Assembly: GCA_017395045.1 (NCBI GenBank)
Contig: JAFPWG010000014.1
Coordinates: forward strand, 95,481 to 159,480
Direction: 5' to 3'
From: Bacteroidales bacterium
GTDB taxonomy: Bacteria > Bacteroidota > Bacteroidia > Bacteroidales > UBA932
Length of the DNA: 64,000 bases
Each line of letters begins with the position of its first letter. Position 1 is the first letter of the stretch. This document shows positions 41,589 to 62,201 of the stretch, piece by piece. The notes beneath the pieces were generated by a model. It was not told where the DNA came from, did no database searches, and saw nothing but the letters and a program-made list of their open reading frames with translations. Position numbers and translations under genes: made by a program.

Positions 41589-41600
41589 CAGAAGATAGCG

Positions 41601-41638
41601 AAAAAACAGCACCAAGCTAGCTTGAGTGCTGTTTTTTT
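41601..41638 (+). terminator. Strong terminator after tRNA-Ser
   Basis: Long stem: AAAAAACAGCAC with GTGCTGTTTTTT, continued inside by CAAGC/GCTTG around a two-base apex with one bulged A, ending in seven T. It closes the ileS-lspA-tRNA unit. Confidence 0.9.
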
Positions 41639-41654
41639 GATAGCTTCTGCTTCG

Positions 41655-44191: not shown

Positions 44192-45508
44192 ATGAAGAAA
44201 GCATACATCGAGACATACGGGTGCCAGATGAACGTGAACGACACCGAAGTCATCTTTTCCATCCTCGCGAAGGAGGGATACGGGCGGACGGAGTCGATGG
44301 AGGAGGCGGACCTGATCATGGCGAATACCTGTTCGGTCCGGGACAATGCCGAACAGCGCATCTGGGGAAGGATCGAACAGTTCAACCTGCAGCGCCGCAA
44401 GCGCCCCGGCGTGGTCGTGGGCATCGTGGGCTGCATGGCGGAACGCCTGAAGGACAAGCTGTTGGAGACGCGGAAAGTGGACCTGGTCGTGGGACCGGAC
44501 GCCTATCGTTCGCTGCCGCGTCTGCTGGAGGCGCTGACTCCGGATAACCCGCAGATCGACGTCCTCCTGTCCCGGGACGAGACTTACGCGGACATCAACC
44601 CGGTCCGGACGGACAGGAACGGCGTGTCGGCCTTCATCTCCATCATGCGGGGCTGCAACAACGTTTGCTCCTACTGCGTGGTGCCCTATACCCGGGGCGT
44701 CGAGCGCTCCCGCGATCCGCATTCCATCGTCCGTGAGGCCTGCGACGTGTTCTCGAAGGGCTACAGGGAGGTGACGCTCCTGGGCCAGAACGTGGACAGT
44801 TACCTGTGGAAGACCGCTGAAGAAACCGTGAACTTCGCGGAGCTGCTCCGGCGCGTGGTGTCGGTAAGCCCCGAACTGAGGGTCCGATTCGCCACTTCGC
44901 ATCCGAAAGACATCAGCGACGAGGTCATCGAAACGATGGCTGCGTACGACAATATCTGCAAGCATATCCATCTTCCCGTGCAGTCCGGCAGTTCCCGGAT
45001 GCTGGAGAAGATGCGCCGGAAATATGACCGGGAATGGTATCTGGAGCGGGTCCGGAAGATCCGCAGCGTGATGCCCGACTGCGGCCTGACGACCGACGTC
45101 ATCGCCGGTTTTTGCTCCGAAACGGAGGAGGATCACGCCGAGACGCTGAGCCTGATGGAGGAGGTGGGCTTCGACTGGGCCTTCATGTTCGCCTATTCGG
45201 AGCGCCCCGGCACCCTGGCCGCCCGGAACTATCCCGACGACGTGCCGCCGGAGGTGAAGACGCGCCGGTTGAACGAAATCATCGACCTGCAGAACCGGAA
45301 GTCGCTGGAAAGTTATCGCAGGGACATCGGCAAGCGCTTCCGCGTGCTGGTCGAGGGACCGTCCAAGCGGAATCCCGATGACCTGTGCGGCCGCGCTTCC
45401 AACAGCAAGATGTGCGTATTCCCCGGCGGCGGCCACCGTACGGGGGAGTACGTGGACGTGGAGGTTGTGGACTGCACCAGCGCTACGCTCATTTGCAAAT
45501 TGATCTAA
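44192..45508 (+). CDS. miaB: tRNA-2-methylthio-N6-dimethylallyladenosine synthase
   Basis: Radical SAM methylthiotransferase for A37 of tRNAs reading UNN codons (such as the tRNA-Ser(UGA) nearby). The 438-residue protein has the MTTase domain with three cluster cysteines (YGCQMN, ANTCSV, VGCMAE), the radical SAM triad CNNVCSYC, and a C-terminal TRAM domain. It starts two bases after rpoN. Confidence 0.96.
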
Positions 45509-45519
45509 ACCACATAGTT

Positions 45520-46992
<1,473 letters not shown>

Positions 46993-46995
46993 ACT

Positions 46996-47733
46996 ATGAA
47001 TGCGTATATCTTTGAATTCATCGGGACCCTCGTGCTGGTCCTCTTCGGTGACGGCGTATGCGCCGCCACGTCGTTGAACAAGTCCAAGGCGAAAGGCGGC
47101 GGATGGGTGGTGATCGCCCTCGCATGGGGCTTCGCCGTGATGATGGGCGTGCTCATCGCCGGCCCGGTTTCCGGTGCGCACCTGAATCCGGCCGTCACCC
47201 TGGGCCTGGCCATCGCCGGCAAATTCGCCTGGTCTTCCGTCCTGGGCTATATCGTCGCCCAGATGCTGGGTGGCTTTGTGGGCGGATTGCTCGTGTATGT
47301 GTTCTATAAGGACCATTACGATGCCACGGCCGACGAACCCGACACGATGCTCGGAACCTTCTGCACCATGCCGGCCATCTGGAATCCGTGGAGGAATTTC
47401 CTCTCCGAATTCATCGCCACTTGCCTGCTGGTGTTCATCATCCTGGCCATCGGCTTCGAGGGCAATGCCTTCCAGGTGGGCCCTGTGGCCGCTTCCACCG
47501 GCGCTATCGGCGCCTGGCCTGTCACCTGCCTGATCATGGCCCTGGGCATGTCCCTCGGCGGTACCACCGGCTACGCGATGAACCCCGCCCGCGACCTCTC
47601 CCCGCGCTGTGCCCACGCTGTCCTGCCCATCAAGGGCAAACGCGACAGCGGCTGGTCCTACAGCTGGGTCCCGGTCGCCGGCCCGATGCTCGGCGCCTGC
47701 CTGGCCGCCGGCCTGTTCCTGCTGGTTTTCTAA
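46996..47733 (+). CDS. glpF: Glycerol facilitator (aquaglyceroporin)
   Basis: A 245-residue MIP-family channel with six membrane helices. The two half-helix motifs are SGAHLNPAVT and GYAMNPARDLSPR; the Asp after the second NPAR is characteristic of glycerol-type channels. Paired with glpK three bases upstream. A strong hairpin terminator follows. Confidence 0.94.
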   Translation: MNAYIFEFIGTLVLVLFGDGVCAATSLNKSKAKGGGWVVIALAWGFAVMMGVLIAGPVSGAHLNPAVTLGLAIAGKFAWSSVLGYIVAQMLGGFVGGLLVYVFYKDHYDATADEPDTMLGTFCTMPAIWNPWRNFLSEFIATCLLVFIILAIGFEGNAFQVGPVAASTGAIGAWPVTCLIMALGMSLGGTTGYAMNPARDLSPRCAHAVLPIKGKRDSGWSYSWVPVAGPMLGACLAAGLFLLVF

Positions 47734-47758: not shown

Positions 47759-47791
47759 ACCGGAGTGCGGATAACCGTACTCCGGTTTTTT
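47759..47791 (+). terminator. Terminator of the glpK-glpF run
   Basis: Twelve-bp stem ACCGGAGTGCGG / CCGTACTCCGGT (one G-U pair) with loop ATAA, then six T. The T-run merges into the first palindrome of the RAYT module. Confidence 0.9.
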
Positions 47792-47816
47792 GTGCAAAAC
47801 AGGTCGTTTTGCACAA
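47790..47816. repeat. RAYT-flanking palindrome 1
   Basis: Perfect 11-bp inverted repeat TTGTGCAAAAC / GTTTTGCACAA with loop AGGTC. Almost identical to palindrome 4 (49031-49061) beyond the other side of the transposase gene. Confidence 0.85.
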
Positions 47817-47835
47817 TTTTCTGCCAGAACGGTGT

Positions 47836-47870
47836 ATAATTGTGCAGGACAGGCCGTTTTACACAATTAT
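47836..47870. repeat. RAYT-flanking palindrome 2
   Basis: Imperfect 15-bp inverted repeat ATAATTGTGCAGGAC / GTTTTACACAATTAT with loop AGGCC, 19 bases after palindrome 1 and 16 bases from the transposase stop codon. Confidence 0.8.
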
Positions 47871-47886
47871 TAACCTTAACAAGGAA

Positions 47887-48858
47887 CTATTCTCTGTTTT
47901 GCTTGGCGCTCATAGGGAAAAAAGCGTCCACGACCTGTTGCTCCAGCCTGGCGATTCTCGCCACTTGGCCATTGGAGGCGCCCCATTTGTTTTTCAGGAT
48001 GATGGCCAGTTCTTTCCGCTGTTGCAGGGGGAGTTCCCTCACGCTGTCGTAGCCGAATTGGGATTTGCTGAGCTGTTGGGCCGTGATAAAGAGTTCATCG
48101 TCGTTCAGGTTGGGGCGTTCTCCCAACCGGTTTGACACTTCGCACTGGGCTTCGACATTCTTGAACACCCACCAGGTAAATCTCCGGGCATTGGGAAACA
48201 GCCGCTCAACCAGTTGATAATCAACAAAACTTTCCGGAGCGATCATATGGTCCCGAATCCGAAATGACGAATCCAGTTCCGGGTTTGGGGAGCGAGTGAT
48301 CTCCCGTTTCTCTTTGTAAGTCAGTTCTTCTGGATTCTTCGATACGAGGCAGGGCAGTAAGGGATTGAAATAAAGGAAGCCGCTGCACCAGGGATAGGCC
48401 AGGGGGTTGACATTGACCTGGACCACATAGGGATTTCGGATGACATAGGCTATCTCATTCCGGAACTGGGTCAAGCTCTCAATCGGCGGTGTGTCCGGAT
48501 TCACTTGGGACATGTCCAATATGCCGGTGCGCCCGCGTCTGGAAAGATAGTTGGACAGCCTTTTCCTCAATCGGTTGAAGAAGGCCAGGCCATCCACCAG
48601 CTCTCCCTGGATGATGAAATGGAAGTGGTTGCTCATCAGGGCATAAGCAAGAATGTCGACGTGGAATTCCTTTGCAGTGGTGGCGATCAGGTTGATGGCG
48701 ACCTTCCGCTCTTCGTCATTCTCAAAGATCAGCCCGTCTTCGAGCGGTTTAGTGTGCAGATGATAAAATGGACCGGATTCCTGGAATAAACGCACTTGCA
48801 TCCATTCGACCTGCCGCTCGGTCAACGGCTTGGGTTGGGGTCTGACATACTGTTCCAT
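47887..48858 (-). CDS. REP-associated tyrosine transposase (Y1/HUH, IS200-like)
   Basis: A 323-residue Y1_Tnp-family protein. The metal-binding HUH motif is H78-F-H80 in SNHFHFII, and the nucleophilic tyrosine is expected at Y138 in AYVIRNP. A C-terminal ~110-residue extension ends in a helix-turn-helix-like part (KNKWGASNGQVARIARL). These enzymes nick and rejoin single-stranded palindromic ends; domesticated RAYTs act on REP sequences rather than moving themselves. Two palindromes lie on each side of this gene. A TAGGTTTG -7 box lies 24 bases upstream of the ATG. The frame is intact, so the protein may be active. Confidence 0.85.
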   Translation of the reverse strand: MEQYVRPQPKPLTERQVEWMQVRLFQESGPFYHLHTKPLEDGLIFENDEERKVAINLIATTAKEFHVDILAYALMSNHFHFIIQGELVDGLAFFNRLRKRLSNYLSRRGRTGILDMSQVNPDTPPIESLTQFRNEIAYVIRNPYVVQVNVNPLAYPWCSGFLYFNPLLPCLVSKNPEELTYKEKREITRSPNPELDSSFRIRDHMIAPESFVDYQLVERLFPNARRFTWWVFKNVEAQCEVSNRLGERPNLNDDELFITAQQLSKSQFGYDSVRELPLQQRKELAIILKNKWGASNGQVARIARLEQQVVDAFFPMSAKQNRE

Positions 48859-48882
48859 CGCTTCAAATCAATCATGTACCTG

Positions 48883-48890
48883 CAAACCTA
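48883..48890 (-). promoter_or_regulatory. -7 promoter box TAGGTTTG of the RAYT gene
   Basis: TAnnTTTG match on the minus strand, 24 bases before the ATG; it lies inside the module, between the gene and palindrome 3. Confidence 0.45.
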
Positions 48891-48980
48891 TGAAATCCCT
48901 TCCTGAAATCAATGGGTTGGCATGTTGTCTCAGGTGGATTTTAATGATTCTTGCTTTTTTTTTTACGTTTTTTTGGAAAT

Positions 48981-49011
48981 AACTGTGTAAAATGGGCCGT
49001 ATTACACAGTT
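48981..49011. repeat. RAYT-flanking palindrome 3
   Basis: Inverted repeat AACTGTGTAA(aat) / (gta)TTACACAGTT around loop GGGCC; resembles palindrome 2. Confidence 0.8.
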
Positions 49012-49030
49012 TCCTGCCTATACAACGAAT

Positions 49031-49061
49031 AATTGTGCAAAACAGGTTGTTTTGCACAATT
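49031..49061. repeat. RAYT-flanking palindrome 4
   Basis: Perfect 13-bp inverted repeat AATTGTGCAAAAC / GTTTTGCACAATT with loop AGGTT, 19 bases after palindrome 3. It ends 45 bases from the upp stop. Confidence 0.85.
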
Positions 49062-58173: not shown

Positions 58174-58290
58174 GCACAACGCGCTATACGTCCCAAATCT
58201 CGGGACGTATAGCGCGTTTTAGGCCTGTTTTTGACATATACGTCCCAATTTCAGGGACGTATAGCGCACGAGGGTTATCGGAAGAAATAG
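58174..58290. repeat. Twin-palindrome repeat, copy A
   Basis: Two hairpins. A1 is a perfect 17-bp stem (58178-58194 with 58202-58218; core GCGCTATACGTCCC) with a seven-base loop. A2 is a 10-bp stem TATACGTCCC / GGGACGTATA (58237-58246 with 58254-58263). The 89-base core (58181-58269) differs from copy B (62092-62180) at three positions, and weaker similarity extends to about 58290. No transposase gene is next to it. Confidence 0.9.
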
Positions 58291-62084: not shown

Positions 62085-62201
62085 GCACAGTGCGCTATAC
62101 GTCCCAAATCTTGGGACGTATAGCGCGTTTCAGGCCTGTTTTTGACATATACGTCCCAGTTTCAGGGACGTATAGCGCACCATGGCTATCGAGAGCAATG
62201 G
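62085..62201. repeat. Twin-palindrome repeat, copy B
   Basis: Same structure and orientation as copy A. B1 is a 14-bp stem GCGCTATACGTCCC (62092-62105 with 62113-62126); B2 is a 10-bp stem (62148-62157 with 62165-62174). The 3.9-kb segment between the copies holds the lipoprotein and small membrane genes. Confidence 0.9.

Follow-up and report, generated by a model that had tools for sequence, protein, structure and literature searches.

A Y1 (HUH) transposase-like gene in a Bacteroidales genome and its probable partner, a head-to-tail 50-nt hairpin unit

RAYTs and REPs have been studied mostly in Proteobacteria, and the ends of IS200/IS605 elements are known to carry hairpins in the same orientation on both sides. 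In PMC2817692, the RAYT gene is reported to be flanked by an inverted pair of REPs. REPs in tandem arrays, though spaced differently, are described for Pseudomonas in PMC3116915, so arrays as such are already known. The sections of PMC6006769 on TnpAY1 subclass 2.1 report it without REP-like sequences, name HTH_23 and HTH_28 for its C-termini, and link these C-termini to a DnaA-type domain, with the DnaA-box consensus quoted. For TIRYTs, the published features are terminal inverted repeats and a GGGGWSAS motif (PMC6006769, PMC3733652), and subclass 2.6 is listed in Table 1 of PMC6006769 with a median length of 179 residues and a WQ motif. No description of direct hairpin arrays of about 50 nt at Y1 genes of Bacteroidales was found in the literature searched, most subscription journals lying outside that search.

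The window, i.e., the whole stretch of DNA analysed here, comprises 64,000 nucleotides from the genome of a Bacteroidales gut bacterium, assembled to 2.67 Mb in 42 contigs (96% complete). An earlier note on this DNA had described a Y1 transposase-like gene bracketed by four matching palindromes as a complete REP-type module. The features at this locus are as follows, in coordinates of the window.

44192..47733, + strand: miaB-glpK-glpF block; relatives differ in where it lies and which way it faces with respect to upp, rpoN and the RAYT-like gene
47759..47786, + strand: terminator-like hairpin of glpF followed by a T run; it abuts the left of the element and is not part of it
47790..47816, - strand: outer hairpin unit on the 3' side of the gene, with 11-bp perfect arms (palindrome, pattern search, folding)
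47840..47866, - strand: inner hairpin unit on the 3' side, 50 nt from the outer one (palindrome, pattern search)
47887..48858, - strand: Y1/HUH (RAYT-like) gene, 323 aa, with HUH at 78-80, Y138 and a YVIRNP motif (ORF, profile matches, alignment)
48983..49009, - strand: inner hairpin unit on the 5' side of the gene (palindrome, pattern search)
49033..49059, - strand: outer hairpin unit on the 5' side, with a 15-bp perfect stem including flanks, 50 nt from the inner one

The gene is an intact frame of 323 codons with an ATG start, and its HUH motif reads H78-F79-H80 (NHFH), followed by a Y---NP motif with Y138 and N142. In an alignment of 69 family members, H78, Y138 and N142 stand in every row and H80 in 68, which bears out the Y1 transposase-like gene with HFH at 78-80 that had been proposed; after the Y motif stand NP (43 rows), NG (16) or other residues (10). 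No W, as in the W[EQ] that RAYTs carry between HUH and Y, occurs at residues 81-137 of the window protein. The kinship to RAYT/IS200-type Y1 proteins agrees with two profile matches that both lie below the cut-offs of their models, namely NCBIfam REP_Tyr_transpos (NF047646; E 1.8e-6, 27.9 bits, cut-off 80) and Pfam Y1_Tnp (PF01797; E 6e-4, 20.3 bits, cut-off 23). A profile built from the 69 relatives gave seven matches to solved chains at E up to 10, the best being IS200-type transposases (best E 0.086, a weak value), with E. coli TnpAREP 4er8 at a likewise weak E of 1.2 over positions 42-142; these matches fall on the HUH region. From these comparisons the product is predicted to be a distant relative of Y1 transposases. 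The length of 323 residues noted earlier stands, and for the helix-turn-helix-like C-terminal extension claimed with it the support is weak: no Pfam match to an HTH was obtained in the window protein, and single members among the 69 gave weak matches to HTH_23 (E 5e-4), an Xre-like HTH (5e-3), HTH_29 (0.011) and HTH_28 (0.038). No relatives of the window protein were found in viral contigs or in PHROGs.

The outer palindromes, TTGTGCAAAAC and GTTTTGCACAA, carry the loops AGGTC and AGGTT, and the inner two are related to them and more degenerate, in agreement with the earlier description. On either side of the gene, the two palindromes of a pair are spaced by exactly 50 nt, and all four lie in one orientation, as defined by their asymmetric loop (RGGYY on the + strand). 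A search of the window for the core pattern, allowing up to 3 mismatches, returned 8 strand-matches, all of them at these four sites; 0.13 would be expected by chance and none of 100 dinucleotide shuffles reached 8, so the bracketing of the gene by a pair on each side is well above chance. Both pairs fold as single-stranded DNA better than any of 200 shuffles (z of −4.57 and −6.74). The flank repeats of the element score 58 in direct and 40 in inverted orientation, and a GT[AG]G head stands at the foot of none of the four hairpins. At the place matching the terminator-like hairpin of glpF, a hairpin is also present in G151, a relative that lacks the RAYT-like gene.

Beyond the locus, the window's own genome holds a small system of two units per side: the strict palindrome pattern with up to 3 mismatches finds sites at the gene only, and a relaxed pattern adds to these four a single stray with 3 mismatches on another contig. 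Among 149 genomes of the family, the palindrome at 2 mismatches or fewer was found nowhere outside the own genome, and at 3 mismatches it occurs as eight single sites in seven other genomes, compared with one match in each of four genomes for the palindrome read backwards.

Two further observations were made in the own genome. A distant Y1 gene (L001, contig C24:55796-58963) is flanked by a repeat pair of its own, of about 103 nt, with a different palindrome. A second double-hairpin unit, TATACGTCCC..GGGACGTATA, consists of two hairpins 52 nt apart in one orientation and is dispersed in this genome (window 58178-58267 and 62090-62178; C30:25992-26070; C31:185-211); the sequences fetched around the C30 and C31 sites, both near contig ends, showed no Y1 frame.

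Orthologues were sought in one genome for each of 84,980 species, yielding 40 loci, of which the seven best placed (L131-L137, 67-84% identical) were compared. Their MAGs bear the labels Bacteroidales, Bacteroidia and, once, Fibrobacter, and the source, where the title gives one, is goat, sheep or other gut. The gene resides vertically at one locus: rpoN, miaB, glpK, glpF, upp, radC and oadA surround it in all seven. Next to the gene there are 3 + 4 hairpin units in L131, 9 + 15 in L132 and 1-3 per side in L133-L136, compared with 2 + 2 in the window. In the window and six orthologues, with the third junction described below included, 42 of the 47 gaps that separate units measure exactly 50 nt and the remaining five 51, 51, 52, 73 and 100 nt. 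TGTG..CACA cores are common to the units of six of the seven orthologues. The motif of L137 differs (GAGCAAAA..GCTCAT, by eye) and is found at both flanks of its gene and at its far junction, which scores 68 against its own flanks and 20-52 against the flanks of the other seven loci.

Outside the locus of the gene, the unit is present at 14 places (18 pattern matches) in four of the seven orthologue genomes, namely six in G207, four in G208 and two each in G209 and G210, with none for the backwards-read control; four pairs of these matches are exactly 50 nt apart. No Y1 match was found within the 5-kb stretch around any of the 14 places; at the place on contig C59 of G207, a Y1 relative lies about 2.6 kb away, just beyond the fetched stretch, and a distance of more than 12 kb from any listed Y1 match is not claimed for six hits. 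Six of the 14 places overlap the end of a script-called ORF of at least 100 aa, so an intergenic location is clear for eight. The unit pattern had no match in G211; G212 holds no dispersed copies, its sole match being the third junction, and G213 holds none either, its one match equalling its own control.

A relative at E up to 0.001 is present in 75 of the 149 sampled family genomes, with up to 13 matches per genome. The elements compared were 75 reading frames taken among the top-scoring matches, some of them related to one another, and later also 23 of 24 frames from named genomes (L160 was left out for its broken frame); the more distant L001 was left out. Of the 74 elements that could be compared in this way, 47 have repeats common to the upstream and downstream flanks, at scores above the 99th percentile for 296 mismatched pairs. 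With the later frames included, orthologues among them, this holds for 60 of 97 elements, where the shared repeats are direct in 52, inverted in 4 and undecided in 4; the other 37 do not reach the threshold used. Within 350 nt of the gene, 59 of 192 flanks showed self-similarity of at least 75%, compared with 4 of 178 control stretches 950-1300 nt away; among these 59 flanks, 35 have their best lag at 50-52 nt and 10 at 102-104 nt. A period of about 50 nt corresponds to about five turns of B-DNA, which may be significant for binding of double-stranded DNA.

The motif itself follows the protein. Similar motifs were found in 72 of the 83 element pairs with protein identities of 60% or more and in 68 of the 4670 pairs with lower identity, near the background of 1%. 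Across this set the motif is private to each lineage, its letters changing between elements while the architecture stays. Of 184 hairpins near relatives, 9 have a GT[AG]G head. In G114, copies of one element's unit are spread over 19 sites on six other contigs, partly as 51-nt arrays, and in G118 15 of 25 unit matches lie on four other contigs, all near contig ends, with controls of zero in both genomes. No Y1 frame was found in the stretches fetched around these sites, those of G118 being cut by contig ends.

The G118 arrays (L118-L121 on contigs C22, C45, C8 and C20) lie near contig ends as if breaking the assembly. The 51-nt arrays of G114 are accompanied by other short tandem repeats with periods of 38 and 22 nt (e.g., GAGATTCCCGCTTTCGCGGGAATGACGG; L112:1736-1876 and L112:5011-5369). 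Two other identities for the repeats were considered and rejected. The arm TTTTGCACA fits the DnaA-box consensus, and this reading was rejected because of the unrelated motifs of other elements; a CRISPR reading of the inspected arrays was rejected because the stretches between the hairpins repeat too.

Thus, the description as a complete REP-type module holds in part. The palindromes belong to the gene and are dispersed in four of seven orthologue genomes; dispersal in the own genome, the GT[AG]G head and the inverted flanking pair did not hold. The absence of further copies in genomes carrying the gene, together with equal abundance of the palindrome in genomes lacking it, had been named as speaking against such a module, and the first half of this was found for the own genome, which is without further palindrome copies. 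Because the GT[AG]G head and the inverted pair are missing, the window element is REP-like in behaviour rather than a canonical REP module. We consider it likely that the gene encodes a divergent RAYT-like nuclease and that this enzyme co-evolves with a hairpin unit of its own, arranged head to tail. The product would be a single-strand nuclease of the Y1 (HUH) type that has a long extension at its C-terminus, and its putative cognate DNA a unit of about 50 nt, composed of one hairpin and a spacer, repeated head to tail in one orientation on both sides of the gene. The protein would bind its own hairpins as single strands, e.g., on the lagging-strand template. For the steps after recognition, we infer that the bound hairpins could be nicked by the protein, and that strand joining could lengthen or shorten the arrays and occasionally seed one to three units elsewhere. 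The gene with its arrays and stray copies points to a little-described branch within a known class of domesticated transposases.

The order of genes beside the element exists in three versions among nine related genomes. From upp, arrangement A (the window and L131) reads upp, RAYT-like gene, glpF-glpK-miaB reversed and rpoN reversed; arrangement B (L132, L133 and L134) reads upp, RAYT-like gene, miaB-glpK-glpF and rpoN reversed; and in arrangement C (L135, L136 and L137) the RAYT-like gene sits between miaB and rpoN. G151 has arrangement A without gene or hairpins, its glpF adjoining upp. The internal order of miaB-glpK-glpF and of upp-radC-oadA is constant in all nine. The far end of the block, i.e., the third junction, also bears hairpin units in all six genomes of B and C (in L137 partly by eye), and the miaB-rpoN junction of arrangement A is short (2 nt in the window) and has no hairpin units. 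On a tree of five neighbouring genes (node supports 71-100), which the tree of the RAYT-like gene largely follows, the arrangements need at least 5 changes, no fewer than with shuffled labels (5 or more in 3110 of 5000 shuffles). Elsewhere in the window, a long hairpin with a 25-bp stem and 4 mismatches lies upstream of rpoN (window 41589-41649).

It is conceivable, if rather unlikely, that the nuclease and its hairpin arrays actively rearrange these neighbours, the arrays serving as cut-and-join sites for local inversion and relocation. Such a causal role would come in addition to the dispersal of a helically phased unit of about 50 nt, with G151 having lost gene and hairpins together. An inversion of the block between inverted arrays is not borne out by the orientation scores of the third array, which in L132 are higher in the same orientation and in the others close; in L134 the inverted score is higher, with another repeat inside the aligned stretch. 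The third junction best matches the flanks of its own RAYT-like gene in only two of six rows (L134 and L137), and those of L132, L133, L135 and L136 match another locus of the group better. That RAYT loci rearrange in general is not borne out, since three other sets of loci with shared order (3, 2 and 2 genomes) show no rearrangement.

These same three sets would also suit a view in which the repeats are passive, the nuclease is uninvolved and the gene orders reflect assembly errors or chance intergenic recombination, as would the fact that all genomes are MAGs and that the block has shifted as well in G182, G203 and G200, more distant genomes in which no adjacent orthologue was found. However, the arrays are enriched at Y1 genes, the motif follows the gene and each arrangement is common to two or three independent MAGs, and we regard this view as unlikely. 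Misassembly in particular is an unlikely source of the gene orders, because exact matches of the third junction to the flanks of the gene extend over 9-16 nt at most, too short to mislead an assembler. In G200, CCGTCC-type hairpins were seen at both ends of the shifted block (L174:3200-3412 and L174:6961-7060), where no RAYT-like gene adjoins.

The hairpins in one orientation on both sides of the gene, and the glpF of G151 beside upp without gene or hairpins, would both fit a self-mobile IS200-like insertion sequence with the hairpins as its left and right ends. However, the own genome contains no near-identical second copy, a trait of IS200/IS605: its six further Y1 relatives at E up to 0.1 are 24-30% identical, the next best at 27%. 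Moreover, the neighbourhood is the same in seven of seven orthologue genomes and the gene tree largely tracks the five neighbours. The empty site of G151 was rejected as proof of insertion; because G151 adjoins L134 in the five-neighbour tree (support 81; 100 with L133), it is better read as a loss, and no orthologue was found elsewhere in G151 (best 28%). An insertion sequence of this kind is therefore highly doubtful. It is equally doubtful that the palindromes serve the gene as ordinary operators or terminators, to which its product would bind with the C-terminal domain in autoregulation, a reading in keeping with units both upstream and downstream, with a spacing of about five helical turns that would suit binding of double-stranded DNA from one face and with the weak HTH matches of some relatives. 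More than an operator would explain are the long arrays of up to 15 units downstream as well as upstream, the unit copies far from Y1 genes and the rapid turnover of the motif. Autoregulation could exist in addition to a RAYT-like role.

The locus suggests that a lineage of Bacteroidales uses another grammar of cognate DNA for a RAYT-like nuclease, with no GT[AG]G guide, one orientation on both sides and a repeat of about 50 nt. As the motif changes while the architecture stays, the elements form a natural set of matched protein-hairpin pairs, useful for the study of DNA recognition by such nucleases and of the origin of REP families, and with the arrays it can be tested directly whether they change the order of genes. 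What is new here is the direct grammar of about 50 nt without GT[AG]G, its breadth in the family and the plastic gene order at one locus.

Compared with the published descriptions of RAYT/TnpAREP and its REPs or REPINs (PMC2817692, PMC3116915, PMC8266576), the system shares a Y1 HUH protein with palindromes beside its gene, single divergent copies rather than identical families, a motif that co-varies with the gene and units dispersed as singles, pairs and clusters. In contrast to these descriptions, the GT[AG]G head is absent from the window hairpins and rare near relatives (9/184), the flank repeats are direct (52/60) rather than inverted, the unit of about 50 nt is head to tail, the proteins have about 300 residues and the window protein lacks W between HUH and Y. 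With TnpAY1 subclass 2.1/TIRYT as described in PMC6006769 and PMC3733652, it shares long Y1 proteins in several divergent copies per genome and an NHVH or NH[YF]H motif; to the C-terminal HTH-like domains named there correspond, in the present family, weak matches in single members and none in the window protein. Its hairpin arrays are direct and its motifs are others. Subclass 2.6, compared by its published description only (PMC6006769), differs by its shorter proteins and its WQ motif, set against about 300 residues here and a window protein without W, and resembles the present system in being mostly from Bacteroidetes and in having atypical secondary structures without GT[AG]G beside the gene, with copies elsewhere in the genome.
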